From Methylocystis sp. IM3 (GTDB lineage: Bacteria; Pseudomonadota; Alphaproteobacteria; Rhizobiales; Beijerinckiaceae): a DNA stretch of 64,000 nt. Positions 6,045 to 47,341 of this stretch are shown here, piece by piece. Below the pieces are notes generated by a model, which saw nothing but the letters and a program-made list of their open reading frames with translations, had not been told where the DNA came from and made no database searches. The stretch lies in the NCBI RefSeq assembly GCF_038070105.1, contig NZ_JBBPBZ010000004.1:124001-188000 (forward strand). The letters are read 5' to 3'. The position numbers and the translations under genes are program-made. Each line of letters begins with the position of its first letter. Within the stretch, counting starts at the first letter, position 1.

Positions 6045-6959
6045 ATGTTTTTTCGCCAGCTCGAATATCTTGTGACGCTGGCGCGAGAACAGCATTTTGC
6101 GCGCGCCGCGGAGGCCTGCAATGTCTCGCAACCCGCCCTGTCAGCGGCGATCCGACGACTGGAAGAAGAGCTGGGCGTCTCCATCGTCGAGCGTGGACAG
6201 AAGTTTGTCGGGCTGACAGAGGATGGCGCGCGCCTACTCGGCTGGGCGCGTCAAGCGCTCGCGGCATGGGACGGACTGAAACAGGAAGCCTCGGTCTCGC
6301 GCGCCCAATTGAGTGGCGCTCTGCGGGTCGGCGCCATCCCCACGACATTGCCGGTCCTGTCATTGCTGAGCGGCCCCTATTTGCGCGCCTTCCCTGCTGT
6401 TCGGCAATTGGTTCAGTCGCTCAGCAACGAGGAGATCATACGGCGTCTCGACAAGTTCGAGCTGGATATCGGCGTGACCTATCTCGAAGACCAGGACTTG
6501 CACCGGTTCCGCGTCCTGCCCCTTTACCGCGAGCGCTATGTTCTGCTTGCGCGCGACGCCGCCGCGCTTGGCGACTGCGCTTCCATGAGTTGGTGCGACG
6601 CGGCGAAATTGCCGCTCTGCCTCTTGACGCGCAACATGCAGAACAGACGGATCATCGACGCGGCTTTCCAACGCGCTGGCGTTCATCCAAACGTGGTCGT
6701 GGAAACCGACTCTGTCTTCGCCCTTTACTCGAACGTTCGCTGCGCGGAAATCTTCAGCATCATGCCGCACAGCCTGCTCGCGCTCTTCGAGATGCGCGAA
6801 GAGTTGACTGCGATCCCGCTCGCGCCGGACCTTTTTCGCAAGATTGGCATCGTCGCCCTCGACCAGGATCCGGCTCCGCCAATCGTTTCGGCGATTTGGA
6901 AATTGACGAGCCAGCTTGATTTAAACCCCTATTTCAGTTTCCTCGACAACGGCAGCTGA
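6045..6959 (+). CDS. LysR-family transcriptional regulator (FdsR-like position)
   Basis: This is a DNA-binding activator or repressor of 304 residues. The N-terminal winged helix-turn-helix (FFRQLEYLVTLAREQHFARA, then SQPALSAAIRRLEEELG) is followed by a periplasmic-binding-like effector domain (LSGALRVGAIPT, SNEEIIRRLDKFELDIGVTY). ATG at 6045 is preferred because GGAG lies eight bases upstream; a GTG nine bases earlier is possible. In related bacteria a LysR protein beside formate dehydrogenase genes (FdsR) controls them, and this gene sits between the two formate dehydrogenase loci, so that role is plausible. Its 3' end overlaps the convergent amidotransferase gene by 31 bases. Confidence 0.9.
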   Translation: MFFRQLEYLVTLAREQHFARAAEACNVSQPALSAAIRRLEEELGVSIVERGQKFVGLTEDGARLLGWARQALAAWDGLKQEASVSRAQLSGALRVGAIPTTLPVLSLLSGPYLRAFPAVRQLVQSLSNEEIIRRLDKFELDIGVTYLEDQDLHRFRVLPLYRERYVLLARDAAALGDCASMSWCDAAKLPLCLLTRNMQNRRIIDAAFQRAGVHPNVVVETDSVFALYSNVRCAEIFSIMPHSLLALFEMREELTAIPLAPDLFRKIGIVALDQDPAPPIVSAIWKLTSQLDLNPYFSFLDNGS

Positions 6960-7654
6960 TCGATCCATGATCGCCAGAAGCGCAGGGCAGCCTGTTCCAG
7001 CTTAGGCGCCAGCTCTCGGCTTGCCTTTCGCAAAGCCGCGATATCGACCTTTGCCGCCGCCAGCTCGCAGGCGTGTCCGACGTACCATCGCTCGAGCCCG
7101 TCCGCGGTCACCTCGGGGTGAAACTGTAGCCCCAGAGCGTAATCACCGATCGCATAAGCCTGGTTCGCATATCGACTGGAAGACGCAAGACACCGGGCGC
7201 TCGCCGGCAGATCAAAAGTATCGCCGTGGAAATGGAACACGGACGGCGCTTCTGAAAGAAGCCTGCAGAAAGCCGCGTCGTCGGACATGCTTGTTTCGGG
7301 CATGATCGCGCCCCATCCAATTTCCTTCCCATTCACGCCGGGATAGACTTGCGCGCTAAGGGCCTGGGCCATCAGCTGGGCGCCGAGGCATATGCCAAGC
7401 GTTGGCTGTCTGGCGTCGAGACGGCGGCGAATGAAATCAATTTCTCCACGCAGGAACGGGTACGCTTCGATTTCGTAGACCCCTATCGGTCCCCCCAAAA
7501 CAACAACCAGTTCAGACGAAGATGAATCCAAGACGCTGAAATCGGCTGTCGTGGCGTCGATCCACTCGATCGCGGCAGCTCTCCGGGTCAATTCCACACC
7601 GAGCGTGCCCAGATCTTCAAAAGCGACATGGGAAATCGCAATGACATTTTCCAT
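6929..7654 (-). CDS. Class I glutamine amidotransferase-like protein (GMP-synthase type)
   Basis: The 241 residues form a GATase1 domain. The nucleophile elbow GICLGAQ carries the catalytic Cys near residue 92, and the catalytic His-Glu pair appears in LQFHPEVTADG; HFHGDTFDLP is typical of stand-alone GuaA-like proteins. Such proteins transfer ammonia from glutamine or act as glutamine hydrolases on unknown substrates; they lack the synthetase domain of GMP synthase. It lies downstream of the formate dehydrogenase/transporter operon on the same strand and converges with the LysR gene. The physiological substrate cannot be deduced. Confidence 0.85.
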   Translation of the reverse strand: MENVIAISHVAFEDLGTLGVELTRRAAAIEWIDATTADFSVLDSSSSELVVVLGGPIGVYEIEAYPFLRGEIDFIRRRLDARQPTLGICLGAQLMAQALSAQVYPGVNGKEIGWGAIMPETSMSDDAAFCRLLSEAPSVFHFHGDTFDLPASARCLASSSRYANQAYAIGDYALGLQFHPEVTADGLERWYVGHACELAAAKVDIAALRKASRELAPKLEQAALRFWRSWIDQLPLSRKLK

Positions 7655-7731
7655 GGAAGCGACCGCCTCGGGCTACGCGTGACCGGTTCACCTGCGGTAG
7701 CGTGGATGGGGGACCATGCATCGCAGCAGCG

Positions 7732-7998
7732 TCACTGGCGACGAGCGCCGCACAGATCGGCCTGCATCATCTCATATTCTTGGATGATCTTACGCGCCCA
7801 CGACAAGGCTTTTTCGCCATGCGCTGTCAGGGTGATCGGGCTGCTTTGCGTCGTAATCAGAGGCGCTTCCAAATATTTTTCCAGATCGCAGATAGACGTC
7901 ACAACGGTTGCTCGCGTGACATTGCACGCCTGAGCGGCCTGAGCAAAATTGCGTTCACGCGCCAATGCAACGAAATGATGGAGATCGTGGATCATCAT
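7732..7998 (-). CDS. Stand-alone LysR-type DNA-binding domain protein
   Basis: The 88-residue product has only the LysR helix-turn-helix (HDLHHFVALARERNFAQAAQ, then TRATVVTSICDLEKYL) and the start of the linker helix. It has no effector-binding domain, which normally adds about 200 residues. The chosen ATG at 7998 has a strong ribosome site (GGAGGAGG, seven bases upstream), so it may be expressed as a small regulator or dominant-negative partner. Alternatively it is the remnant of a full LysR gene. The DNA-binding part resembles that of the LysR protein at 6045-6959. It follows the transporter gene by 46 bases on the same strand. Confidence 0.7.
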   Translation of the reverse strand: MMIHDLHHFVALARERNFAQAAQACNVTRATVVTSICDLEKYLEAPLITTQSSPITLTAHGEKALSWARKIIQEYEMMQADLCGARRQ

Positions 7999-35361: not shown

Positions 35362-35781
35362 GTGCCCCGTCCGCACAAGCCCGACATCGCCAAGCATCGC
35401 GTCCAGGCGGACTTTTCGCCGGAGGATTTCGCGCGGCTCGAGCAAGCCTGCGCCATCTTCGGACTCGGGAAGTCCGACCTGCTGCGCCGGCTCGTGCGCG
35501 CGTCCATCGACGTCGGGCCCGCGCTCAGCGTCGAGAACGGCGAGGCGCTCGCAGCAACCACGCGGGAGCTGCGCGCCTGCGGGCGCAACATCGCGCAGAT
35601 CGTCAAAGGCATTAATCTCGGCTATGCGCCGCAGCTAGCCGACGACAAGGAACTTTTCGTCGCCACCCACCGGGCGCTCTCCGAGATCAACGCGCTCGTG
35701 CACGAGATGACCGCCGCCTATGGCGCGCGGGTTCGGCGCGCCGCGGGCCTAAAGCCGCTTCCTGGGACGGAGGCGTCGTGA
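35362..35781 (+). CDS. TraJ/MobC-like oriT-binding protein
   Basis: The 139-residue protein has a ribbon-helix-helix-like start (IAKHRVQADFSPEDFARLEQ, LGKSDLLRRLVRASID) and the segment RELRACGRNIAQIVKGINLG typical of MobC/TraJ mobilization proteins, which help the relaxase bind its site. It starts with GTG at 35362. Its stop overlaps the relaxase start (GTGA at 35778), so the two are coupled. Position next to oriT and before the relaxase matches traJ of IncP. Confidence 0.78.
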   Translation: MPRPHKPDIAKHRVQADFSPEDFARLEQACAIFGLGKSDLLRRLVRASIDVGPALSVENGEALAATTRELRACGRNIAQIVKGINLGYAPQLADDKELFVATHRALSEINALVHEMTAAYGARVRRAAGLKPLPGTEAS

Positions 35782-38120
35782 GCGAGGCTCGAGCGAACGT
35801 CCGCGCCTCCCTTGTGGCGGAAATGAACCGGCTGGCTCTGGCGGCGGGCGCATTTCGGCGTTCACGCGCGGCGCGGGAGAAGCGAGGACTCGAGGAGCAA
35901 CCTGATAGGGTCGTAGGACTGAGGCCGTCGACGGCCTCCTCATCGGAGCATTCGCGGGTCTCGGCCCTGGAGCCAGCCCCGCGTGCCCTGGCCGCGGACC
36001 GCGTTCTGCGCGGAATGACCATCACAGGCGGGGAGGACGAAGAGAAGCGACGGCGGTTGCCGCAAGTCTCCGCCTCGGGCGGAAAGCCGCCGCGACGAAG
36101 CGCCGACGTCGCGTCTTCCCCGGCCGTCATCGGCCGGGGCGCGCCGCTGATGTCGCGCGCGAGAGCCTTGGCGCAAGGCTATCAACCGGCAGTCGTCAAG
36201 GTCGTCTCGTATGCGCATGGCGCGGCGCGAGCCTCGGCGACCGCGAATTATATCGATCGCGAAGACGCCCTTCTCGAAACCCAGGACGGCGTCGAGTTGA
36301 AGGGGCGCAGGGCGATCAACGCCGAGATCGCCGAATGGGCAAAGGATTTCGAGCCGCGTGAGGAAAGCCAGGACGTCGCCGGCGTGCGCTTTCAGATCAT
36401 GGGCCTCAAGGACACGTCGGTCGATCGCCAGACCCTCGAAACGTCGCTCGCTGCCGCCTTCGTCGGACATCGTTATGCCTACCGGATCGAGGTTCTGAAG
36501 GACGGCGCCATCGAGGCACGAGCTGTCGTCGCCTTCGCCGGGACGCTTGCCGAGGGCGAGGCCGTTAGGCGTGAGCGTTTCTCTGTCGCCGAGCGCCAGG
36601 TCGGCGCGGCCGAGGGTTTTGAAGCCCGCGTCTTCGCGCCAAAATCCGACGCACGGATGAAGGCCCGCGTCGAGGCGGCGACCGGGATCGGCCAGCATCG
36701 GATCGCGCTTGAGCCCGGCGCGCCCGGAAATGGTCCGTCGAGCGTCGTCGATCGCCTGACGCGGCTCCAGGAGCGCGGCGCGGCGGTTTCGGATAGCGGG
36801 GCCCTCCTCGACGACCCGAGCGCAATTCAAGCCGAGTCGCGCGCCTGGCGGCGCGATCTGCGCTCGTTCAAGCCGCGCGACACGATGCACCTCATCGTCT
36901 CCGCCAAGGCCGGCGTCGACGTCAACGCCTTCAGAACTGCCGTGCGCGGCTTCGTCCACGAGCAGTTCGCCGAGCACAAATTCATGTTCGGCGTGCACAC
37001 CGACAAGGCTGACGCTGGGCATGTCCACGCCCATGTGATCGTCGCTGTCCGCGACGCCGAGGGCGTGAAAATTCATCCAGGGCCGCAGGATTTTCGACAT
37101 TGGCGCGAGACCTTCGCGGAGCACGCCCAGATGCAAGGGCTAAAGATCGTTGCGACCTCGGCCGCAGAACGCGCCTCGTCTCAGAGCTATGGCCCCAAGG
37201 ACAAGGCGATTGTCGACGCTGCCGATCATCCTCGACCGGATCGAGAGGCGCGCGATCGCGCCTATGCGAGCGATCCGGCGAACAAGACGCTCATCGACAA
37301 TGCGCGCAGGCGCATCGAGATCGCGCGCACCAATCCAATTCGTATGCCGGCCTCGGAGCGTCAGCTCGCCGTCGCGAACGACTGTGCCTCGACGTGGCGA
37401 CAGCTGGCGCGGGAGGAACCGCAGAGCGCGACCGCAAGCGCTCTTGCCCAGCGGATGCAATTCTCTCAAGCCGCCGGGCACGCAATCGCCACGCTCGTCA
37501 ATCAGGCTCTCATCACCCAGACCACGAGGAACAGCGCCATGCCGATCACCGCCGCGCAAATGGGATCCGACCTCAAGCTGCTGAACGAAGCCGTGGACAG
37601 GGTCGGCGCCGTGTTGCCAGCCGACACCAGAGCGGCATTTTTCGAGCAGTCGGGGCGCTATCTCGAAAGGCTTGCGGCGCGTGTCGATATGCAGCGAGAA
37701 TTTGAGGGCAAATCCTCGCAAGCCGCGCTTGCTCCCGTCGTGGAGCAGGCCGCGGGAATCGCTCGCGTCGAACAACGCGAAGCGATCAGCGCGCAGAGGC
37801 TCGTGGAAAGCGCCGAAGCCGTCGAGCGGCGTGTCGAGGCGCGGGGGAACCCGACTCCTGCGGGCACGCGCGACATCGACACCTCTCGCGCCGTCGTCCG
37901 GGAAGCCGAGAGAACCGCCGCGGGTGAACAAGCCCGCGCGTATGCGGCGACCGAGGCGCAACGCGCGCTCGCGGCCAATGCCGTGGTGCCTCTCTCGGCT
38001 TCAATCGTTGTCGACGCGCGGCTTGAAGCGTTGCGCCGAGAACAAATGGAAAAGATTCGTCAAATTGCGGCGGAAACGGAAGCGGCCGGCAAGACATCAG
38101 ACTTTGAGATCGAACAATGA
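35778..38120 (+). CDS. Relaxase (VirD2/TraI-type mobilization nuclease)
   Basis: This 780-residue enzyme nicks oriT and pilots the strand into the recipient. A low-complexity N-terminal extension of about 130 residues precedes the relaxase domain. The probable catalytic Tyr lies in VVKVVSYAHGAARASATANY (motif I), and the metal-binding histidines in GHVHAHVIVAV (motif III). The C-terminal part is helical and charged, including HRP-type segment YGPKDKAIVDAADHPRPDRE, and probably binds the coupling protein. It starts with GTG overlapping the TraJ-like gene. Its own promoter region is the shared operator at 35299. The VirD4 and VirB genes at 45-58 kb complete the apparatus. Confidence 0.88.
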   Translation: MSEARANVRASLVAEMNRLALAAGAFRRSRAAREKRGLEEQPDRVVGLRPSTASSSEHSRVSALEPAPRALAADRVLRGMTITGGEDEEKRRRLPQVSASGGKPPRRSADVASSPAVIGRGAPLMSRARALAQGYQPAVVKVVSYAHGAARASATANYIDREDALLETQDGVELKGRRAINAEIAEWAKDFEPREESQDVAGVRFQIMGLKDTSVDRQTLETSLAAAFVGHRYAYRIEVLKDGAIEARAVVAFAGTLAEGEAVRRERFSVAERQVGAAEGFEARVFAPKSDARMKARVEAATGIGQHRIALEPGAPGNGPSSVVDRLTRLQERGAAVSDSGALLDDPSAIQAESRAWRRDLRSFKPRDTMHLIVSAKAGVDVNAFRTAVRGFVHEQFAEHKFMFGVHTDKADAGHVHAHVIVAVRDAEGVKIHPGPQDFRHWRETFAEHAQMQGLKIVATSAAERASSQSYGPKDKAIVDAADHPRPDREARDRAYASDPANKTLIDNARRRIEIARTNPIRMPASERQLAVANDCASTWRQLAREEPQSATASALAQRMQFSQAAGHAIATLVNQALITQTTRNSAMPITAAQMGSDLKLLNEAVDRVGAVLPADTRAAFFEQSGRYLERLAARVDMQREFEGKSSQAALAPVVEQAAGIARVEQREAISAQRLVESAEAVERRVEARGNPTPAGTRDIDTSRAVVREAERTAAGEQARAYAATEAQRALAANAVVPLSASIVVDARLEALRREQMEKIRQIAAETEAAGKTSDFEIEQ

Positions 38121-38170: not shown

Positions 38171-38602
38171 TCACGGCTTGATGATCTTCGGTGGCGACTT
38201 AAACGGATCCAGTATCGTAGCACCGCGGCCCAACATATGTCTCACGTTTCGGGTAACCAAGGTCAATCCATGCACTCCGGCGGTTGCGACTAGTCCGGCA
38301 TCATCTACGTGTTTGTCGCTTTGAGCCAGAAGCTCGCCCCATAGGTCCGCGATCTCACGGGTGATCGGCAGGATTCGGTCTCCGAAAGCGTCCAAGATTT
38401 CTCGGACCCGCATCTCAATTTGATTGGCCACCCCGCGCTTGTTGGCCCTGAGCTTGATTATACCCTTGCGGACCTCGCGGACCGTGATTGCGCTGATTGC
38501 CAGGTCGGCGTCATCGACAGAGTCGAGCCAGGCGGCCACATTCGCATGTGGCTCGGTCCTGCCGATCTCGCGGAAAACGTTTGTGTCGAGCAGAAATTTC
38601 AT
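38171..38602 (-). CDS. PIN-domain toxin (FitB/VapC-like)
   Basis: The 143 residues are a PIN ribonuclease domain: the first acidic residue in MKFLLDTNVFREIGR, ISAITVREVRKGI with the conserved Glu, HVDDAGLVATAGVHGLTLVT with the later Asp residues, and the terminal region. Such toxins cut tRNA or rRNA and are neutralised by the partner protein. The start overlaps the antitoxin gene stop (ATGA), as in toxin-antitoxin operons. Converges with the relaxase gene. It is likely to stabilise the plasmid. Confidence 0.85.
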   Translation of the reverse strand: MKFLLDTNVFREIGRTEPHANVAAWLDSVDDADLAISAITVREVRKGIIKLRANKRGVANQIEMRVREILDAFGDRILPITREIADLWGELLAQSDKHVDDAGLVATAGVHGLTLVTRNVRHMLGRGATILDPFKSPPKIIKP

Positions 38603-39216
38603 TTCTCCTCGTCCAGGACCTCATCCAAAGCTTCAAGGCCAGCGCCCTTGATCGTGCGCTTTACTGTTTTCGACGGATAAGGCCGGCCCGCCTTCGGATG
38701 CGCGTCTGCGTAGGCACTCGCGGTGGCGACCGCCTCCGAAGTCAGAGAGGGATAGTCTTGGCAAATCTGTTCAGGCGTCATCCCTCCCGCTAGGAGGGCC
38801 GCTATGCGATAGACTTCGACATGCGTACCCTTAAGCACGGCTTCGCCGTCCTGACGGAATTCGATCTTCTCTGCCAGTTCCGCCAGCTCGCGTGCACGGC
38901 TGTGCACCTCGGCTTTGAGGTCGTCGATGGCAATGCTGAGCCGACCGAACCGAACTTCGTGTGCGCGCTCAACTGCCACGCCCTTGAGAGCGTGATAAAA
39001 TTCGTTCCGTGCTTTAGGCGTGAGCTCGTCACGAAGTGTGCGCACGGCGAAGAGGTATAGGACGTCGGCCCACTCGATCGCGCGCACGGGGCCGCCGGCC
39101 TTGTTGACCAACTTCGCCTGGACGGGACCTTCATCCAGGGCCTTCTTGACCCTCTTCACGGGCTCGCGAAGCACGAATGCCACTTCCGCGGCGGTAAACG
39201 CGATGGCTTCAGACAT
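38599..39216 (-). CDS. DUF433-domain antitoxin
   Basis: The 205 residues pair with the downstream PIN toxin. The N-terminal part is a MerR-like helix (FTAAEVAFVLREPVKRVKKA), and the C-terminal half is a DUF433 domain (GTHVEVYRIAALLAGGMTPE, ICQDYPSLTSEAVATASAYA). ATG at 39216 is chosen because AGGAG lies six bases upstream. Upstream, around 39228-39265, CCCAATATTAGGG-like repeats may be its operator. DUF433 antitoxins with PIN toxins form known type II systems. Confidence 0.82.
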   Translation of the reverse strand: MSEAIAFTAAEVAFVLREPVKRVKKALDEGPVQAKLVNKAGGPVRAIEWADVLYLFAVRTLRDELTPKARNEFYHALKGVAVERAHEVRFGRLSIAIDDLKAEVHSRARELAELAEKIEFRQDGEAVLKGTHVEVYRIAALLAGGMTPEQICQDYPSLTSEAVATASAYADAHPKAGRPYPSKTVKRTIKGAGLEALDEVLDEEK

Positions 39217-39227
39217 GGTCATCTCCT

Positions 39228-39311: not shown

Positions 39312-39326
39312 GTAAGATTATCTTAC
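39312..39326. promoter_or_regulatory. Perfect palindrome, likely operator of the cargo operon
   Basis: GTAAGAT-T-ATCTTAC is an exact 7-bp inverted repeat 26 bases before the ACP-like start. The XRE protein encoded in the same operon (39654) is the natural candidate to bind it. Confidence 0.65.
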
Positions 39327-39351: not shown

Positions 39352-39657
39352 TTGGATTCTGCCGCATTAAAAGAGACGCTGATCGCCGTCCTCGGCCAAA
39401 TTCAGGCCGACAGCGGCCTCGAATGCCCGCCTCTCACAGGCGCCACCAAGCCCATCGAGAACCTGCCCAAGTTCGACAGCAAGGTCTGGCCTGTCGCGAC
39501 CACGATTATCGCCACCGAGACTGGCGCGACCATCCCGAACGACGTGAACATCTTCGTCGACGAGACGACCAAGCTCCCGCGCTCCATCGACGAAATCGCC
39601 GCCTTCGTTTGTGAGCTGCTCAAGAAGCAGAGCGAGAAAGAAGCGGCAGCGGCATGA
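39352..39657 (+). CDS. Acyl-carrier-protein-like protein
   Basis: The 101 residues have the pattern of an ACP: a first helix (LKETLIAVLGQIQ), the segment PKFDSKVWPVATTIIATETG with an Asp-Ser (Ser 43) in the phosphopantetheine position, and the following IPNDVNIFVDETTKLPRSID. The canonical DSL is DSK here. A holo-ACP synthase gene lies 4.2 kb downstream in the same island, which supports the reading. The start is probably TTG at 39352, six bases after AGGAGG; a GTG at 39346 lies too close. It is the first gene of the cargo operon and overlaps the XRE gene. The acyl or amino group it would carry is unknown. Confidence 0.65.
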   Translation: MDSAALKETLIAVLGQIQADSGLECPPLTGATKPIENLPKFDSKVWPVATTIIATETGATIPNDVNIFVDETTKLPRSIDEIAAFVCELLKKQSEKEAAAA

Positions 39658-40019
39658 CCGAACTCGATTCCGGCAAGCGTGCGCAGATCGCCGAGCGCCT
39701 GAAGGAGGCGCGCAAGCTCGCGGGCCTGTCGCAAGGCCATGTCGCCAAGATGCTCGGCCTGCATCGCCCCTCCGTCAGCGAGATGGAGGCCGGCAATCGT
39801 CGCGTCTCGGCCGACGAGCTCGCCCGGCTTGCTGAGATCTATGACGTCAGCGTCGCCTGGCTGCTCGGTGAGGCGCCAGAGACGCTCGACGCCCAGGACC
39901 CCCGGCTCGAGCTCGCCGCACGCGAACTCTCGAAACTCAAGCCTGACGACCTGGAACGCCTGCTCAAGCTTCTGGCCGCCATGCGCAGCGATTCCACCCC
40001 GAACGAAGGCGATCGCTGA
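39654..40019 (+). CDS. XRE-family helix-turn-helix regulator
   Basis: The 121 residues contain a classical Cro/C1-type helix-turn-helix (residues 12-67: RLKEARKLAGLSQGHVAKML, RPSVSEMEAGNRRVSADELA) and a helical C-terminal tail (ELAARELSKLKPDDLERLLK). It overlaps the ACP-like gene (ATGA) and the ImmA/IrrE gene, so the three are tightly coupled. XRE plus ImmA/IrrE pairs are a known stress-released switch: the peptidase cleaves the repressor, as in ICEBs1. Here it probably represses the operon through the palindrome at 39312. Confidence 0.9.
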   Translation: MTELDSGKRAQIAERLKEARKLAGLSQGHVAKMLGLHRPSVSEMEAGNRRVSADELARLAEIYDVSVAWLLGEAPETLDAQDPRLELAARELSKLKPDDLERLLKLLAAMRSDSTPNEGDR

Positions 40020-40921
40020 TGAGCATGATGCGCACCTTCAAGCCCAGCTTTGATCGCCGCGCCCTGGCGACCCAAGCCATGCAGGCCGCCGCAGCGACGC
40101 GGGCGAAGGCCAAGCTCGACCAAGCGGGCCCGATCTGCATCTACGGGCTTTGCGAGACACTGGGCGTCGCGGTGCGGTTTAACAACATTAATATGGAAGG
40201 GATGTATCAGCGGGGCCTCCCACCGCGCATCCATCTCTCCGCGCGACGGCCGCTGCCGCGCCGCGCCTACAATTGCGCGCACGAGCTCGGCCATCATGTT
40301 TTCGGCCATGGCTCTTCGATCGACGAACTGCGTGAGGACGCCAAGGCGCAGCCATGGGAAGACCCGAAGGAATTCCTGGCCGACACCTTCGCTGGCTTTA
40401 TTCTCATGCCGATCATCGGCCTGCGCCGCGCCTTCTCGGTCCGAGGCTGGACCCCCGAAACGGCGACGTCGGCGCAGATCTTCACCATCGCCTGCGAGTT
40501 CGGCGTTGGTTACGCGACGCTTCTGACCCACCTCTCAGCAGGCGTGAACATGTTGTCGCGCGGTCGCGCCGCCGCTTTGCAACGCGTCACCCCAAAGGCG
40601 TTGCGCATCGACATCCTGGGCGCGCTGACGCCCGAACCGCTGATCGTCGTCGACCGCCATCGCACCGCGCCCACCTTGGATGCAGAGGTCAAAACGCTGC
40701 TCCTTCTGCCGCCCGGCACCGAGGTGACGGGCGGTGGGCTCGCGTTCGAACGCGACTTTGCAGCCGGACGCCTGTTCCGGGCGGTGAAGCCGGGAATATT
40801 CCAGGCGACCGCTCGCGACTGGGCCGTCTTCGTGCGCATCGCCCCGATCCAGAAAAGCGAGCCATACGGCTATGTCGGTCTCGCGCAATTCCGCCATCTG
40901 GAGGAGGACCCGGATGAGTAA
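40019..40921 (+). CDS. ImmA/IrrE-family zinc metallopeptidase
   Basis: The 300 residues match ImmA/IrrE peptidases. The zinc motif HELGH occupies residues 88-92 (YNCAHELGHHVFGHG), and the downstream EFLADTFAGFILMP supplies the third ligand region. The C-terminal 120 residues form a GAF-like or sensory part (VKTLLLLPPGTEVTGGGLAF) without a known ligand. Family members cleave the cognate XRE repressor when triggered. Coupled to the XRE gene (TGATG) and overlapping the next gene by eight bases. A signal produced by infection or DNA damage is plausible but not shown. Confidence 0.9.
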   Translation: MSMMRTFKPSFDRRALATQAMQAAAATRAKAKLDQAGPICIYGLCETLGVAVRFNNINMEGMYQRGLPPRIHLSARRPLPRRAYNCAHELGHHVFGHGSSIDELREDAKAQPWEDPKEFLADTFAGFILMPIIGLRRAFSVRGWTPETATSAQIFTIACEFGVGYATLLTHLSAGVNMLSRGRAAALQRVTPKALRIDILGALTPEPLIVVDRHRTAPTLDAEVKTLLLLPPGTEVTGGGLAFERDFAAGRLFRAVKPGIFQATARDWAVFVRIAPIQKSEPYGYVGLAQFRHLEEDPDE

Positions 40922-41768
40922 GGCGAAGATGCTCGCGCCGCCGCCGCCCCTGGTGATCGACGACACCAATCTCTCGCGCGCTTGGGCGCGGCTGCTGTTG
41001 CAGGTTCTTGACGGTGCTGGCACCGAGGTCGCGCCATTGATCCTGAGCCTGAGCGGCTTCACCCAGAGCGGCGCACCTCTCGAAGACCCGGCGGTGCGCC
41101 AAGCCCTCGATCGGCTACTCATGCGCAAAGGGAGACTTGTGATAGACGACGTCGCGTTCACCATTTTCCCGCAGCGCCTCTGGGAAATGTCGCGCGGCGA
41201 CCGGAAACGCTTCTTTACCCTCTATTGCGCCACATTCCCGCGTTGGCAGGCAATGAACCGTAAGGCCAATGGTCGCGGCCTCTATTTCGAGCGCCTAGCC
41301 ATGTACGGTCGTGGCCCCTGCGACGGCAATCAACTGGAGTGGATCTTGTCTCAGTTCAATTCGCGAACAGGCGTGCGCCGCTCGATGCTGCAGGCAACCA
41401 CCTTCGATCCGGGCCGCGACCATGTGGCCAGTGCGCAGCTCGGCTTTCCCTGCCTACAGCACGTGAGCTTCGAGCCGACCGCGGCCGGACTTGTCACCAA
41501 CGCGTTCTATGCCACACAGCAGATCTTCGACAAGGCCTATGGCAACTATCTCGGCCTGGCACAGCTTGGCGCGTTCATGGCCCAAGAGATGGGTATGCCG
41601 CTTGCGCGCCTCAACGTTATGGTCGGGGTCGCCAAGCTTGAGCGGATCACCAAAAACGACGCTGATTTCGCGCCGCTGATCGTCGCCGCTCAGGCCCTCG
41701 TGACGCCGCCCGCTGTGCCGTCAGCGCGGCGCGCCACAGTCGCTATGGCCATCGGAGCAGCGCGTTGA
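40914..41768 (+). CDS. Thymidylate-synthase-like enzyme
   Basis: The 284-residue protein keeps the layout of thymidylate synthase-type folds. It has paired arginines (RTGVRRSMLQATTFDPGRDH, Arg 155-156), a Pro-Cys motif (FPCLQHVSF, Cys 180, His 183), and the helix with Asn 211 in AYGNYLGLAQLGAFMAQEMG. Thymidylate synthases and dUMP hydroxymethylases use the Cys to attack C6 of dUMP; here the surrounding residues differ from housekeeping ThyA (PCLQH instead of PCH). That suggests a changed substrate. The N-terminal 120 residues are unfamiliar. Upstream GGAGGA supports the start. Phage enzymes of this family make hydroxymethyl-dUMP for base modification. Confidence 0.72.
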   Translation: MSKAKMLAPPPPLVIDDTNLSRAWARLLLQVLDGAGTEVAPLILSLSGFTQSGAPLEDPAVRQALDRLLMRKGRLVIDDVAFTIFPQRLWEMSRGDRKRFFTLYCATFPRWQAMNRKANGRGLYFERLAMYGRGPCDGNQLEWILSQFNSRTGVRRSMLQATTFDPGRDHVASAQLGFPCLQHVSFEPTAAGLVTNAFYATQQIFDKAYGNYLGLAQLGAFMAQEMGMPLARLNVMVGVAKLERITKNDADFAPLIVAAQALVTPPAVPSARRATVAMAIGAAR

Positions 41769-42901
41769 GTTCGAGGTCTCCCAAAATCCCGTCGAAACGT
41801 CCGCGCGGCCGCCCCTTAAGAGACCGTCCAAGCGCAACCAGCGCATTACTGCCGATGGAGCTACCTGTCGCCGTTCGGCCCGCGGCGGCTTCGCCGGCGC
41901 CCGTGCCGATCGTGTTGCGACACCTCGCGCCGGCCAAGGTGTCGGAAGTCTATGAGAGTTATTGGCGCTTTGCCGCCGAACGGCAGGCGGTGTTCTTTCG
42001 CCGCGCGCGCGGTGAGAAGCGCCCCTGGACCAGCAATCCGGTGCTGGCGATCTTCAAATTCACCAACGCCTACCGGGCGTCCGACCGGGTCAGCCAATAT
42101 CTCATCCGGCATGTCATTTATCACGAAGACCTGCCCAAGTCGCCGCGCGAAGTGTTCTTTCGCATCCTGCTGTTCAAGCTGTTCAACAAGATCGAGACCT
42201 GGGAGCTTCTCGAACGCGCGCTTGGCCCGATCACCTTCGAGGACTATCGCTTCGCTGCCTATGACGCGGTGCTCTCGCGCGCGATGCAGGCCGGCCATCG
42301 CATCTACTCGGCTGCATACATCATGCCGCCGGGCAGCCGCGCCTTCGGACGGCCGGCCAAGCACCAGAATCATCTGTTGCTGCTTGAACGGATGATGGCG
42401 GACCGGCTTGCCGAGCGGCTGGCCCAAACCCGAACGATGCAGGAGGGGTTCGAGAAGCTGCGCGCCTATCCGACGATCGGCGACTTCCTCGCTTATCAGT
42501 TCATCACCGACATCAATTACAGCGAACTCACCGATTTCAGCGAAATGGACTTTGTCGTGCCCGGCCCCGGGGCACGCGACGGCCTGCGTAAATGCTTCCT
42601 CGATCCGGGCGGCCTGAACGAGCCCGAGCTCATCCGGTTGATGGCCGACCTGCAGGAGCAGGAGTTCGAGCGACTGGGTCTCGATTTCCAATCGCTCTGG
42701 GGCCGGCGGCTCCAGCTGATCGACTGCCAGAACCTGTTCTGCGAAGTCGATAAATATGCGCGCGTGGCGCACCCGCAGATCGCAGGAATGACCGGCCGTG
42801 TCCGGATCAAGCAGAAGTTCGAGCCGACCCCCGAGCCGATCGAACTCTTCTATCCCCCCAAATGGAACCTCAACGACAAGATCAGCATAGACGCGCCGTA
42901 G
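41765..42901 (+). CDS. 5hmU-DNA-kinase helical domain / thymine-pyrophosphorylase-like protein
   Basis: The 378 residues resemble the helical domain of 5-hydroxymethyl-dU DNA kinases and alpha-glutamyl/putrescinyl-thymine pyrophosphorylases, predicted to hypermodify thymine in phage DNA. Family-type segments are RPWTSNPVLAIFKFTNAYRA (86-105), YPTIGDFLAYQFITDINYS (235-253), MDFVVPGPGARDGLRKCF (261-278, helix-hairpin-helix-like) and IDCQNLFCEVDKYARV (319-334). The start is TTG overlapping the preceding stop (TTGA), preceded by GGAG; an internal ATG at residue 31 is possible. The basic N-terminal 45 residues could bind DNA. The assignment is from pattern memory, so the exact reaction is open. 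Confidence 0.7.
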   Translation: MSSRSPKIPSKRPRGRPLRDRPSATSALLPMELPVAVRPAAASPAPVPIVLRHLAPAKVSEVYESYWRFAAERQAVFFRRARGEKRPWTSNPVLAIFKFTNAYRASDRVSQYLIRHVIYHEDLPKSPREVFFRILLFKLFNKIETWELLERALGPITFEDYRFAAYDAVLSRAMQAGHRIYSAAYIMPPGSRAFGRPAKHQNHLLLLERMMADRLAERLAQTRTMQEGFEKLRAYPTIGDFLAYQFITDINYSELTDFSEMDFVVPGPGARDGLRKCFLDPGGLNEPELIRLMADLQEQEFERLGLDFQSLWGRRLQLIDCQNLFCEVDKYARVAHPQIAGMTGRVRIKQKFEPTPEPIELFYPPKWNLNDKISIDAP

Positions 42902-42935
42902 TGCGCTTCAGTGGGTGAGGCCGAAGGAGGCGAGC

Positions 42936-43841
42936 GTGGATTTCAATAGCTATCAGAAGGAGGCATTGCGCACCGATCGTGTGCCCGCTCGCGATGGTGC
43001 CGACGATGCCACATCGTTGATCGTGCCGATGCTAGGTCTAGCTGGCGAGACCGGTCAGCTACTTAGCGAATACAAGAAGCATTTGCGCGACGGCGAAGCG
43101 CATCGCCTGTTCAAAGAGCGCGTGTCTGAGGAACTAGGCGACCTACTCTGGTACATCGCCAACGTCGCCAGCAAGTTCGAACTCTCACTTTCTGATATTG
43201 CCACCGCCAACCTGGCCAAGGTCAAGCAGCGCTGGGCGAGCGAGCGCAACGAGCCGCTCACCTTCGACGCTGAGCTACCCGAGGGCGAGCGCCTGCCGAG
43301 GCGGTTTGAGGTCGAGCTCATCGATGTCGACGGCGAAGCGCGCCAGCGGGTACGTGTTCTAATTGACGGCAAGCCCTTCGGCGCAGAACTCACTGACAAT
43401 GCCTACGATCCGGATGGATATCGCTTTCACGATGTTTTCCACTTCGCTTACGCCGCGGTGCTGGGCTGGTCGCCCATCGCGCGCGCCTTGCTCCGGAAAA
43501 AGCGCAAAAGTCGGCCGTTACTCGACGAGGTGGAGGACGGCGGCCGCGCGGCGGTCATCGAAGAGGGCGTAGCGGCGCTCGCCTTCGATTATGCGCGTCG
43601 CCATCGCTTCCTCGACGGTGTTGCCGCCCTCGATTTCCAGCTCTTGCGCACGATCAAGGACATGACGTCCCATCTGGAAGTGCGCCAATGCACCACCGGT
43701 GAGTGGGAGCAGGCGATCCTGCAAGGGTTCGAGGTGTGGCGCGCTGTGTTCGCCGCGCGTGGTGGCCGCATCGCCGTCGATCTCGACGCGCGGCGCCTCG
43801 CCTTCCTCGGCCCCTCGCATGGTCAGGAGCCGCGCGCGTGA
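42936..43841 (+). CDS. MazG-like nucleotide pyrophosphohydrolase with extra C-terminal domain
   Basis: The 301 residues start with a MazG fold: GLAGETGQLLSEYKKH and VSEELGDLLWYIANVASKFE carry the Mg2+-binding Glu/Asp residues. Such enzymes cut NTPs or dNTPs to monophosphate and pyrophosphate. Residues about 110-300 form a second helical region with YRFHDVFHFAYAAVLGWSP and VEDGGRAAVIEEGVAALAFD, also rich in acidic and His residues, seen in long MazG-like proteins. GTG at 42936 is chosen because AAGGAGG lies five bases upstream. It fits a role in removing or sanitising nucleotides in the island's pathway. Confidence 0.8.
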   Translation: MDFNSYQKEALRTDRVPARDGADDATSLIVPMLGLAGETGQLLSEYKKHLRDGEAHRLFKERVSEELGDLLWYIANVASKFELSLSDIATANLAKVKQRWASERNEPLTFDAELPEGERLPRRFEVELIDVDGEARQRVRVLIDGKPFGAELTDNAYDPDGYRFHDVFHFAYAAVLGWSPIARALLRKKRKSRPLLDEVEDGGRAAVIEEGVAALAFDYARRHRFLDGVAALDFQLLRTIKDMTSHLEVRQCTTGEWEQAILQGFEVWRAVFAARGGRIAVDLDARRLAFLGPSHGQEPRA

Positions 43842-43843
43842 GC

Positions 43844-44227
43844 CTACGGCCCCAGTGCGATAACGCTCGCCATCGCCAAACCGCCTGCATGGCTAATGCT
43901 GAGACGCCAGGCGGTTATCCCCAACGCCGCTGCGGTCTTCAGCGCGCCGCCGGCGAGTTGGACCTCCGGCGCTGCGCCCGGCGCGCGGTGAATCACGACA
44001 TCCGTGAACGCAATCCCAGCGCCGAAGCCCGTCCCAAGCGCCTTGAGAACCGCCTCCTTGGCGGCAAACCGCCCCGCCAGGCGCTCGACCCGATCGGTCC
44101 CATTGCCGATCTCGTCAAGCTCAGCCTGATCAAAGCAACGCGGAACGAGCGGGTTGCGCGGATCGTCGATCCAGCGCCGCATCTCGGCGACCTCCACAAG
44201 GTCGATGCCGTGTCCGATGAAGTTCAC
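43844..44227 (-). CDS. Holo-ACP synthase (AcpS-type phosphopantetheinyl transferase)
   Basis: The 127 residues match AcpS: IGHGIDLVEVAEMRRW with the metal-binding Asp, CFDQAELDEIG, and RLAGRFAAKEAVLKALGTGF with the second metal ligand. AcpS moves phosphopantetheine from CoA onto a Ser of a carrier protein. The start is GTG at 44227, five bases after GAAGG; the longer frame upstream has no family similarity. It lies on the opposite strand to the other cargo genes, convergent with MazG. A dedicated AcpS in a small island strongly implies a dedicated carrier, most likely the ACP-like protein at 39352. Confidence 0.88.
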   Translation of the reverse strand: MNFIGHGIDLVEVAEMRRWIDDPRNPLVPRCFDQAELDEIGNGTDRVERLAGRFAAKEAVLKALGTGFGAGIAFTDVVIHRAPGAAPEVQLAGGALKTAAALGITAWRLSISHAGGLAMASVIALGP

Positions 44228-44328
44228 GAAAGCCTTCTTTCCCTTGAGCCCAACAGATCGAGGCGCGTCCAAAACCAAGGAGCGCGGCGAATGATGGCTG
44301 AATAATAGGGACCACGGGGAGCAAAGTA

Positions 44329-45078
44329 ATGACCAAGCCACCAGCCATGTTCTGGAGCGGGGAAACGCTCAGCGAGCGGCTCAAAACGCTGATCGACCCG
44401 TTCGCGCCCGAACGCGTGGACTGTGCTGCCTACACGTTGTCCATCGGCCCCGAAGTCTATGTCTCGCCCAATGATCAGACGGCCGATCCCACCACAGTCA
44501 CCGTCCGTAAACTTAGCGACGGCGAGGCATTCACCGTTCCGCCCGGCCAGTTCGCCTTCCTGCTTACCGAGGAGATCGTCTCAGTTCCAGCCGATGCACT
44601 GGCTTTCATCTCTATCCGCGCTAAGATCAAGTTCCGAGGCCTCGTCAATGTGTCGGGATTTCACGTAGATCCGGGCTATCGCGGCCAGCTAACTTTCGCC
44701 GTCTTCAATGCAGGCCCCGTGCCGATCCACCTCAAGCGCGGGCAACCAATCTTTCTGATCTGGTACTCAAGCCTCGACTGCGAGACCGCCTTTAAGAAGG
44801 ACGGCACCATCCACGAGGGCATCGATCCCGAGCTGGTCACGTCCGTCGCCGGTGAGCTGCAGTCTTTTGCCAGCCTCTCGAAAAAGATCAAGGACGTTGA
44901 CAAGGCACTCGGAGACCGCGTCCATGCCGTTGAGAAGGAGCAGACCTACTACCGCGTCATCGGCGCAGTCGCGCTTGCACTTGTGATCGCGCTAACGGTG
45001 AATTGGCTCAAGGACATCCTCCCTTCGCGATCCGCTCCAGCCCCCCAGGCGACGTCGGCGCCGCCGGCTAGACCATAA
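44329..45078 (+). CDS. dCTP-deaminase/dUTPase-like protein with C-terminal membrane anchor
   Basis: The first 150 of 249 residues form a trimeric dUTPase/dCTP-deaminase fold: AYTLSIGPEVYVSPNDQ, AFISIRAKIKFRGLVNVSGF, HVDPGYRGQLTFAVFNAGPV and KRGQPIFLIWYSSLD. Asp 114 occupies the dUTPase-type catalytic place, but the Glu of dCTP deaminases is replaced by Ala 124. A coiled helix (SKKIKDVDKALGDRVHAVEK) and a membrane segment (VIGAVALALVIALTVNWLKD, about 210-230) follow. This anchoring is unusual for the family. It may sense dNTPs or phage nucleotides at the membrane. ATG at 44329 follows GGGGAG. Confidence 0.75.
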   Translation: MTKPPAMFWSGETLSERLKTLIDPFAPERVDCAAYTLSIGPEVYVSPNDQTADPTTVTVRKLSDGEAFTVPPGQFAFLLTEEIVSVPADALAFISIRAKIKFRGLVNVSGFHVDPGYRGQLTFAVFNAGPVPIHLKRGQPIFLIWYSSLDCETAFKKDGTIHEGIDPELVTSVAGELQSFASLSKKIKDVDKALGDRVHAVEKEQTYYRVIGAVALALVIALTVNWLKDILPSRSAPAPQATSAPPARP

Positions 45079-45146: not shown

Positions 45147-45302
45147 GTGAATGCACAAATTTTGGAAGCTTTGACTGCAAACCGACGAGAGCGTCGTCAT
45201 CATTGGCGAGAGCAAGGTTGGAAGGGCGACTTTATCCGAGCCCTGCAATTCATCCTCGACCCCACCCATGAATCCAAAACCCTTGAGGGGTCCGGAAGCT
45301 AA
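45147..45302 (+). CDS. Possible small ORF at the island edge
   Basis: A 51-residue frame starts with GTG at 45147 and ends at 45302, overlapping the convergent virD4 stop by four bases. The product (ALTANRRERRHHWREQGWKG, then FIRALQFILDPTHESKTLEG) has a natural-looking composition but no ribosome site is obvious. It may be a real small protein or the remnant of a longer gene. Confidence 0.3.
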   Translation: MNAQILEALTANRRERRHHWREQGWKGDFIRALQFILDPTHESKTLEGSGS

Positions 45303-47341
45303 GCGGCAGTCCAATCTTTTCGGATTTTCTCTGTGATTGCCGTCAGACTCTTCAGAGCAGATCCGATCTCGTCGCCAGCGTGCGAGGAAATTGCCTGCCG
45401 CGCCTCGGCGTTTATCCTGGCGATGACGTTCTCCACGTCAACGTCCGCTCGCTGCTTTCGCGCGCCTTCTTGGTTAGAGTCTCCTGGCGGCGCTTCGGCG
45501 TCGGATTTCTCGTTCGTATGCAAGACGGGGGTTGCAGCGGACTCAGCTTGCGCCGCCTTCGAGGCCAGCCTCGACTTGAAATGAGCATCCAGCCACGCTG
45601 AGGGCTCGGTCCAGTGTAGCAAACGCGGCGGATCGATCAGCGGAACCGCGGTTTGCTTAATCAACCGCCGCATCTGCCGATCACGAAAGAAATAAACCTT
45701 CGCAATCTCGAACGGCCGCGCATTGGCGACGAGCAGGATCGACTTGTCCTTCGCCATCCGCGTCAATTCTTGCGGCCGCCGCAGGGGCGCCGCCATGTGC
45801 CCGAGCGACACGCGAGATTGCGAGAGCCCGGCTCCCATCATCTTCGTCGTATGCGTCGCCGTGTAGGTCCCCAGCGCGTCCGAGACATATTTCGCGGTCT
45901 CGTTGTCGTTGATCGCGACGAAGAGCTTTAGCGCCGCTCCGGCGACGAGCGTCTCTCGCATCGCCTTGCCATAGGTCTCGTCGAGCTGCGAGATGTTTTG
46001 CAGCACGATCGCCATCCGGAAGCCATAGCCGGCGCTGACCGCGATCTTCGAGGCGAGAGACGACATCCGACCGAGCGCGTAGAATTCATCGAGGAGCAGA
46101 AGGACCTGATGCGGTTCGTCGGCGCCAGGGAGGTTTCGCATCAGCACGTCGTGGATCTGCTGGAATAAAATACGAATGAGCGGGCGGTAGCTTTCGAGAT
46201 CGGCAAGCGGCGAGCCGATGAATATCGACATGCGCTTGCGACGCAGATCGCGGACATCGAAATCAGACACCTCCGTCACGGCGCAGATCAGCGGCGAGTC
46301 CCAGGGCGCGAAAGCATTGTTGACGTTGAACATGACCGAGCCGCGCGTGCGGTCGGGAATCGCCACAAATTGATTGAAGGCGTCGAACACCCAGGAGGGA
46401 ACGGAGCCGTCATTTTCCGTCGCGACGATGGTTTTCAGTACGTCGGCGATGTCGTGCCCAGTCGAGATCACCCGCACCGCGGAGCGAATATGCCGCGCCT
46501 TCTCGAAATGGATGCTCGTCATCACATAGCCGAGCAGCGCCGCGACGGTCTTGCGGGCGGCAAGCGTCCATTCGTTCTCGACTGAGCCGGTCACGACGAG
46601 GAAGCTCGCGATATTGGCGCAATCCGTCGCCATCTCAGGCCCTGGCCGCACATAGTCCAGCGGATTGTAGCGGTGGGAGGAGGCCGAGCCCGGCGCAAAG
46701 ACGAAGACGGCGTCGCCCTTGGCCGCACGCGCCGCGCCGAAGGATTTCAGATTCTCGCTCTTGATGTCGAGCGTCACCATGGATCCGGGCCAGGCGAGGC
46801 CGTTCGGGATCACGAAGCTCACGCCCTTGCCGGTGCGGGTCGGGCCGACGATCAGCACGTGGCCCGGATCGTCCGAGACCAGCATCTGGCCGTTGAGGCG
46901 GCCGAGGATAATTCCGCTCTTCGCCCCCAGCCCGGCCCGGCGCGCTTCGGAAAGCGTCCCAAAGCGCGCGTCGCCGTGAAGCGTTGACCGGCGGTTCGCG
47001 TAGAGAAAGATCGCTAAGGCGAGGAAGAGTGCGAGCACGAGGCCAGCGGCGATGGCGCCGTTTTCCAGCGCGAGGTTGGAGACGCGCTTGTCCTGCGCAT
47101 AGACATAGAAATGCTTGTAGGCGAGCGGAAAGCCGTGATCGAAGGAGAGAGGCGGAAACTGCTCGAGGTCGAAGCGGGGATTTTCCGTCGTGACCCTCTT
47201 GAGAAGCGCCCATTTCTGCGCAGGCCTGGAGAAGCCGGAACGAAAGCCGGTCACGATCGCATAGGGCACGACCCAGAGCAGCGCCGCGGCGAGGGACAAG
47301 AATAGCCCAATGACCAGCCGCTCGAGATGTTCCCGCATCAT
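45299..47341 (-). CDS. virD4: Type IV secretion coupling protein VirD4/TraG
   Basis: This 680-residue inner-membrane ATPase links the relaxosome to the secretion channel. Two N-terminal membrane segments (about 10-30 and 95-115) are followed by the nucleotide-binding domain with Walker A IVGPTRTGKGVSF and Walker B VLLLLDEFYALG, plus the RecA-like segments QNISQLDETYG and the family-typical MVTLDIKSENLKSFG. The C-terminal 100 residues are charged and probably contact substrates. It is the last gene of the minus-strand virB operon, 14 bases after virB11. Full length, no anomalies. Confidence 0.93.
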   Translation of the reverse strand: MMREHLERLVIGLFLSLAAALLWVVPYAIVTGFRSGFSRPAQKWALLKRVTTENPRFDLEQFPPLSFDHGFPLAYKHFYVYAQDKRVSNLALENGAIAAGLVLALFLALAIFLYANRRSTLHGDARFGTLSEARRAGLGAKSGIILGRLNGQMLVSDDPGHVLIVGPTRTGKGVSFVIPNGLAWPGSMVTLDIKSENLKSFGAARAAKGDAVFVFAPGSASSHRYNPLDYVRPGPEMATDCANIASFLVVTGSVENEWTLAARKTVAALLGYVMTSIHFEKARHIRSAVRVISTGHDIADVLKTIVATENDGSVPSWVFDAFNQFVAIPDRTRGSVMFNVNNAFAPWDSPLICAVTEVSDFDVRDLRRKRMSIFIGSPLADLESYRPLIRILFQQIHDVLMRNLPGADEPHQVLLLLDEFYALGRMSSLASKIAVSAGYGFRMAIVLQNISQLDETYGKAMRETLVAGAALKLFVAINDNETAKYVSDALGTYTATHTTKMMGAGLSQSRVSLGHMAAPLRRPQELTRMAKDKSILLVANARPFEIAKVYFFRDRQMRRLIKQTAVPLIDPPRLLHWTEPSAWLDAHFKSRLASKAAQAESAATPVLHTNEKSDAEAPPGDSNQEGARKQRADVDVENVIARINAEARQAISSHAGDEIGSALKSLTAITEKIRKDWTAA

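Follow-up and report, generated by a model that had tools for sequence, protein, structure and literature searches.

A conserved operon joining a carrier protein and a thymidylate-synthase-fold enzyme to a CapH/CapP-like switch in Methylocystis: a candidate nucleotide-modification system with a possible role against phage

Results and Discussion

The window analysed here, a 64,000-nt stretch of Methylocystis sp. IM3 (contig NZ_JBBPBZ010000004.1, positions 124,001 to 188,000), carries at 39352-45078 an operon of eight genes that very probably represents a real, conserved and inducible nucleotide-modification system, and that in our fullest explanation, to which we assign a probability of roughly 45%, would be mobile, stress-inducible and directed against phage. 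The open reading frame (ORF) listing bears out all eight ORFs, in the order given in a preliminary description of this DNA: an acyl/peptidyl-carrier-like protein (ACP), an XRE-family repressor, an ImmA/IrrE metallopeptidase, a thymidylate-synthase-like enzyme (TSL), an HMUDK_hel protein, a MazG-MazG_C protein, a holo-ACP synthase (AcpS) and a protein of the dCTP-deaminase/dUTPase fold (DCD-fold). The gene set, its order, the folds of its products, their conserved catalytic residues, a palindrome 5′ of the ACP gene and the spread of the set are results of computation.

The gene set recurs across bacterial phyla

Nine TSL sequences were aligned and used to scan a genome collection of 84,980 species, in which 144 stretches matched the pattern and 62 were confirmed; together with three earlier loci (L006-L008) these yielded 65 loci, which were annotated with hidden Markov models seeded from the window. 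L007 repeats L053 and L008 repeats L029, leaving 63 distinct loci, or 53 clusters at 90% identity. TSL is present in all 63 by choice of query, and is accompanied by the XRE repressor in 62, ImmA in 61, ACP in 58, MazG_C in 55, HMUDK_hel in 49, AcpS in 41, the DCD-fold protein in 19, a C1 peptidase in 15, a UDG-superfamily protein in 13 and a thymidylate-kinase-like domain in 8. Among the five loci without ACP, L030 and L053 end at contig ends, and L057-L059 have in its place a 100-aa protein without a clear Ser motif; one of the 58 with ACP, L018, has a broken ORF. The commonest, if not the sole, gene order is ACP-XRE-ImmA-TSL-HMUDK-MazG_C-AcpS, and genes are reordered or strand-flipped in the Actinomycetes loci and in a second group of loci (L006, L061-L068 and L070-L072). 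In the latter, a papain-like C1 peptidase lies between ImmA and TSL and the UDG-superfamily protein replaces HMUDK_hel, which is retained beside a C1 peptidase in L057, L059 and L069. Named hosts include Alphaproteobacteria and other Pseudomonadota, Cyanobacteria, Planctomycetota, Armatimonadota, Chloroflexi, Acidobacteria, Binatota and Actinomycetes, several of them metagenome-assembled genomes; the “Bacillus” record L035 groups with Sphingomonas-type sequences and may be misassigned. Copies in Bradyrhizobium sp. BTAi1 and on a Sinorhizobium fredii plasmid are among those from plant symbionts or soil bacteria.

Third-party annotations agree with these assignments, in that TSL, on plasmids of Sinorhizobium, Allocoleopsis and Streptomyces, is surrounded by genes for an HTH regulator, ImmA/IrrE, a pyrophosphohydrolase and a protein with a nucleotide kinase domain. 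The ACP gene is annotated as acyl carrier protein in the Allocoleopsis and Streptomyces copies and as hypothetical in Sinorhizobium, which is the only one of the three with an annotated holo-ACP synthase; in the Streptomyces copy these annotations call TSL hypothetical and put the genes for the kinase-domain protein and the pyrophosphohydrolase on the opposite strand. The expectation that these families would be found together across genomes was thus borne out by the 63 loci and the plasmid annotations alike, and because the set recurs in mostly the same order in several phyla we regard it as a genuine system rather than a chance assembly. Were the genes loose cargo, adjacent by happenstance, one might expect the optional presence of the DCD-fold protein and the shifts of AcpS in strand and position among loci, but order and palindrome are conserved across phyla and some of the genes are fused; this explanation, already contradicted by the locus tally and the palindrome, is extremely improbable.

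When the search was reversed, MazG_C (PF18722) was found in 4 of the 398 genomes of a phylum sample, every one with TSL nearby, and HMUDK_hel (PF18723) in 8 of the 385 genomes of a class sample. Four of these eight have both TSL and MazG_C (the window; L080, which is the same contig as L027; L081; and L082, which is cut in TSL), L083 and L084 have MazG_C with no TSL in the stretch read, and two have neither. These results place HMUDK_hel and MazG_C in a wider network, of which the TSL-ACP version is one branch. In the L083 island (6806-7945) they are accompanied by Nmad2 and by a TIR protein of the ThsB type; in L084 (8539-13466) a similar protein and an HTH-ImmA fusion were seen, by eye only, beside HMUDK_hel and MazG_C.

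TSL and the carrier protein form the constant core

TSL (about 40914-41768, plus strand) has no Pfam match and was identified through profiles and structure. It has the thymidylate synthase (TS) fold, as had been proposed from the sequence, and its nearest folds are those of MilA, a CMP hydroxymethylase, and of a dCMP hydroxylase from a phage. C179 and N210, which we take to be the catalytic Cys and the pyrimidine-binding Asn, are invariant (64/64) and align with phage TS, the Asn adjoining a one-column gap. The position of the Arg that presumably contacts the dUMP phosphate is occupied by Thr, Asn or Ser in 60/64, and that of the His in the His-x-Tyr motif, which we assume to bind the sugar, by Lys in 44/64, with 11 sequences having a His two columns earlier. 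Because the Arg and the His are mostly replaced, we call the enzyme TS-like and do not assign it as a thymidylate synthase.

The ACP gene (39352-39657, plus strand) starts with a TTG codon at 39352, with AGGAGG just 5′ of it, and codes for 101 aa, the same as the database copy P0121. Its attachment Ser, Ser45, located in FDSKVW, is found in 54 of 56 aligned rows, the exceptions being a Thr in L052 and a broken ORF in L018; with these two left out, it is the sole invariant column among 24 chosen divergent members. While the window ACP has no Pfam match, the family profile reaches carrier proteins in the PDB (best 3.1e-5), and PF00550 scores above cut-off for the relatives in L051 and L060 and below it for those in L054, L056 and L064.

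The AcpS gene occupies an ORF on the minus strand at 43844-44341 (TIGR00516, 2e-19), with the true start probably further inside. This phosphopantetheinyl transferase (PPTase) has D47, K95 and E96 conserved in 42/42 sequences, and the window genome contains two further matches to the family besides the operon copy. AcpS accompanies 27 of 30 loci with a non-DSL ACP motif vs 1 of 15 DSL-type loci (L040), in a count that drops L018, near-copies and short contigs and treats L040 and L060 (DSV) as DSL-type. The TSL tree (41 rows; the ACP of L057, not identified, was labelled by default) shows essentially one shift, so that the Fisher P of 6e-8 is not usable and the correlation was rejected as independent support. 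On the AcpS tree the operon copies cluster, with 3 changes vs 12.6 in shuffles; this is only suggestive because the other PPTase loci are incompletely sampled (24 of 31 extracted; 9, the window genome’s own included, without a profile match, and one lost to the length filter).

Natural-product clusters typically provide a carrier protein with a PPTase of its own, and MilA, the CMP 5-hydroxymethylase of mildiomycin biosynthesis, which has 14% identity to TSL, belongs to an antibiotic pathway. That it is among the nearest solved folds would suit an operon whose product is a diffusible nucleoside, an antibiotic or a signal, made much as mildiomycin is, yet no adenylation enzyme or exporter is present among the eight genes, none was seen in the other listed clusters, which are incompletely annotated, and the switch is of the immune or mobile-element type, so that we hold such a product to be improbable.

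HMUDK_hel and its substitutes

The HMUDK_hel protein (41765-42901, plus strand), of base-binding or transferase type, matches PF18723 at 8.5e-112, scoring 373.5 bits against a gathering cut-off of 25. Its nearest fold is a phage base-modifying glycinyltransferase, a moderate match, while PDB sequence searches returned chance-like rows or none; the objection anticipated at the outset, that the TS-like and pyrophosphorylase-like proteins would have unrelated folds, was not borne out. An identification with the phage amino acid:DNA transferase was rejected: that protein belongs to PF18724, and sequence profiles do not connect the two, although the fold is nearest. The Pfam scan reveals no P-loop kinase domain in the window protein, which therefore does not qualify as a 5-hydroxymethyldeoxyuridine DNA kinase.

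In six relatives (L040, L043, L044, L048, L050 and L054) a thymidylate-kinase-like domain is fused to HMUDK_hel, and in one locus HMUDK_hel is fused to MazG_C. The former fusion is found in Hyphomicrobiaceae, a cyanobacterium, a planctomycete and Sulfuritalea, and so may be the older form. In L054 (9777-12486) another TS gene, this one recognised by Pfam, comes after the fusion, and the locus seems to form a bridge to pathways of the phage type. In L055 (9737-11964) a radical SAM protein follows HMUDK_hel at the usual place of MazG_C, and HMUDK_hel retains an N-terminal P-loop-like motif. HMUDK_hel and UDG are mutually exclusive across the 63 loci, and only L058, whose contig ends soon after the XRE gene, has neither.

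Of 50,697 phage records, 477 encode a relative of the window HMUDK_hel, with Salmonella, Pseudomonas and Vibrio phages the most frequent. In phage PaMx11, the family member lies between a P-loop protein gene and a TS gene, with an amino acid:DNA transferase near. As in the operon, HMUDK_hel here adjoins a TS-type enzyme, but the latter is an ordinary TS-family protein, the P-loop protein and the transferase are additional, and no ACP is annotated in the 8.8 kb read. Further thymidine hypermodification genes are found in phages M6 and ViI, and PaMx11-like phages modify their own DNA. By extension, the operon could place a modified base on host or element DNA, either as an epigenetic mark or in the way that the modification component of a restriction system does, for which the PaMx11 neighbourhood is a precedent. 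Neither a nuclease (neighbours at other loci were sampled only) nor a DNA polymerase is among the eight genes, however, and a stress-type switch controls them, making such self-marking rather improbable.

MazG_C and DCD-fold proteins

The MazG-MazG_C protein (42915-43841, plus strand; PF18722, 2.1e-77; PF03819, 8.7e-5) departs from consensus at residue 48, presumably the second Glu of the ExxE motif, which among 56 rows is Gln in 32, Ser in 15 and Glu in 1. The DCD-fold protein (44329-45078, plus strand; PF22769, 3e-17) ends in a transmembrane (TM)-like segment at about residues 210-228, as judged from hydropathy only. All components named in the preliminary description could be recognised, with the qualification that this one probably does not work as a dCTP deaminase, since Ala (12) or Ser (8) replaces the catalytic Glu in 20/20 sequences; a functional dCTP deaminase in the window was accordingly rejected.

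Taken together, the TM-like segment and the degenerate nucleotide-binding fold of this protein, the substitution of UDG for HMUDK_hel and the occurrence of HMUDK_hel relatives in phages would also be compatible with an operon that makes no new nucleotide and senses or attacks phage DNA carrying hypermodified thymine. HMUDK_hel or UDG would then recognise bases of the 5-hydroxymethyluracil type, and phage nucleotides would be the targets of MazG and of the DCD-fold membrane protein. Such a reading leaves the constant core, TSL and ACP, without an obvious sensing role, and the TSL Cys and Asn are invariant; we consider it unlikely, if the least so of the alternatives. Of the two hypotheses put forward at the outset, we prefer the synthesis of a modified nucleotide of thymidine type to the destruction of phage nucleotides, given that TSL and the carrier make up the constant core, that 8/63 loci have thymidylate-kinase-like domains and that the MazG motif is off consensus.

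A CapH/CapP-like switch and a conserved palindrome

The second and third genes code for a CapH-like XRE repressor (39654-40019, plus strand; HTH_3, 1e-14; PADLOC capH, 1.4e-18) and a CapP-like ImmA/IrrE (M78) metallopeptidase (40019-40921, plus strand; PF06114, 1.9e-14; PADLOC capP, 7.5e-10) in which HExxH is kept; H88, E89 and H92 are conserved in 63/63 sequences. The pair is therefore as originally recognised, although it does not start the operon, which begins with ACP and has the conserved palindrome 5′ of that gene. This operator-like palindrome, GTAAGATTATCTTAC (39312-39326), is 25 bases 5′ of the ACP start, is the sole window site within 3 mismatches, and overlies a sigma-70-like -10 element, TATCTT, 17 bases past TTGACG, in a promoter read by eye. 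In 45 main-group upstream regions, near-copies included, GTAAG-N5-CTTAC is exact in 38, has one mismatch in 6 and is absent in 1 (L018), vs no exact occurrence and 0.8% with one mismatch in 2,250 base-shuffled control regions. It is absent from 14/14 other regions tested (the second group of loci, L060 and L069), several of which show a different palindrome there, by eye.

PMC13373217 describes ssDNA as the activator of CapP and ascribes the control of immune operons to CapH/CapP. The present operon shares with such operons the XRE and ImmA pair near its head, i.e. an HTH repressor beside an HExxH ImmA-type peptidase, and differs from them in that its other six genes match no PADLOC model at E <= 1.

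Flanks and mobility

ORFs and flanking families confirm that the eight genes are situated between genes for a MobA/VirD2-like relaxase (35778-38120) and a VirD4/TraG-type coupling protein (45299-47341). Within the same interval a toxin-antitoxin-like pair of PIN-domain and DUF433 genes (38171-39222) directly adjoins the operon, and the Allocoleopsis copy (L122) has an annotated VapC gene on the same side. TSL is present on 8 of 72,556 plasmid records, five of them typed as conjugative.

Around the loci, 288 flanking ORFs were chosen, 179 of them within 3 kb, and 87 of the nearest were hand-picked for a scan without a control set. These 87 proteins include AbiEii (5), SMC/AAA ATPases (4), integrases (3), DUF6088 (3), type IV secretion coupling proteins (2), TIR proteins (2) and others, with AbiEii and DUF6088 among the most frequent families; PADLOC matches were to AbiE, Mad3, LmuB, BrxH, GajA and AriA models, some of which may be generic ATPase matches. 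Given these flanks and the CapH/CapP-like switch, an anti-phage role is plausible by analogy. As for the core itself, a scan of IMG/VR for TSL gave 53 pattern matches and zero confirmed, and the 50,697 phage records gave no match; a viral origin was rejected, as at those sensitivities TSL has no relative in either collection.

Comparison with predicted defence systems

DefensePredictor (PMC13092281) reports the validation of systems containing 5-hydroxymethyluracil kinase and thymidylate synthase domains, predicts aGPT-Pplase, MazG, MazG-C, dUTPase and NMAD nucleotide-modification systems as defence, and credits Burroughs 2015 for several of these domains. MazG, MazG-C, an aGPT/HMUDK-type domain and a dUTPase fold are common to these systems and the operon. 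Its main text does not contain the terms “acyl carrier” or “ImmA”, and the ACP version could stand in its figures or supplements or in Burroughs 2015. Among titles and abstract openings no ACP/AcpS version was found, a prior description in Burroughs 2015, Iyer 2013 or Lee 2018/2022 being possible.

Proposed mechanism and implications

We infer each chemical step below, as well as the anti-phage outcome, from the families and residues described above. At rest, the CapH-like repressor would occupy the palindrome 5′ of the ACP gene and keep the operon off until DNA damage or phage replication leads the CapP-like peptidase to cleave it, as its family suggests. AcpS, judging from its conserved active-site residues and the attachment Ser of its partner, would then place phosphopantetheine on ACP, and TSL, via its conserved Cys, may make a 5-modified deoxypyrimidine nucleotide, whose added group the carrier would deliver or hold. 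Thymidylate-kinase-like enzymes, of the host or linked to the operon, would bring this nucleotide towards the triphosphate, to be incorporated into new DNA, chiefly that of phage. HMUDK_hel, or its UDG-family substitute, might bind the odd base and then modify it further or excise it, MazG-MazG_C would limit or complete the nucleotide, and as the end result phage replication would fail.

The initial interpretation of this operon is thus partly supported. An anti-phage role is, by analogy, fairly probable. A toxic or tagging nucleotide made with the help of the carrier can be proposed tentatively, and it is somewhat more doubtful that the operon is an immune system in which a phosphopantetheine carrier and a TS-fold enzyme together produce a hypermodified deoxynucleotide whose entry into phage DNA ruins that DNA, and on which a partner of DNA-glycosylase type acts.

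If the mobile, stress-inducible nucleotide-modification system is what we propose, it would join the carrier chemistry of fatty-acid and natural-product synthesis to nucleotide immunity, a link not found described in the literature searched. It would also provide a testable joint function for HMUDK_hel, MazG_C and the TS-like family, and a bacterial counterpart to the thymidine hypermodification pathways of phages.

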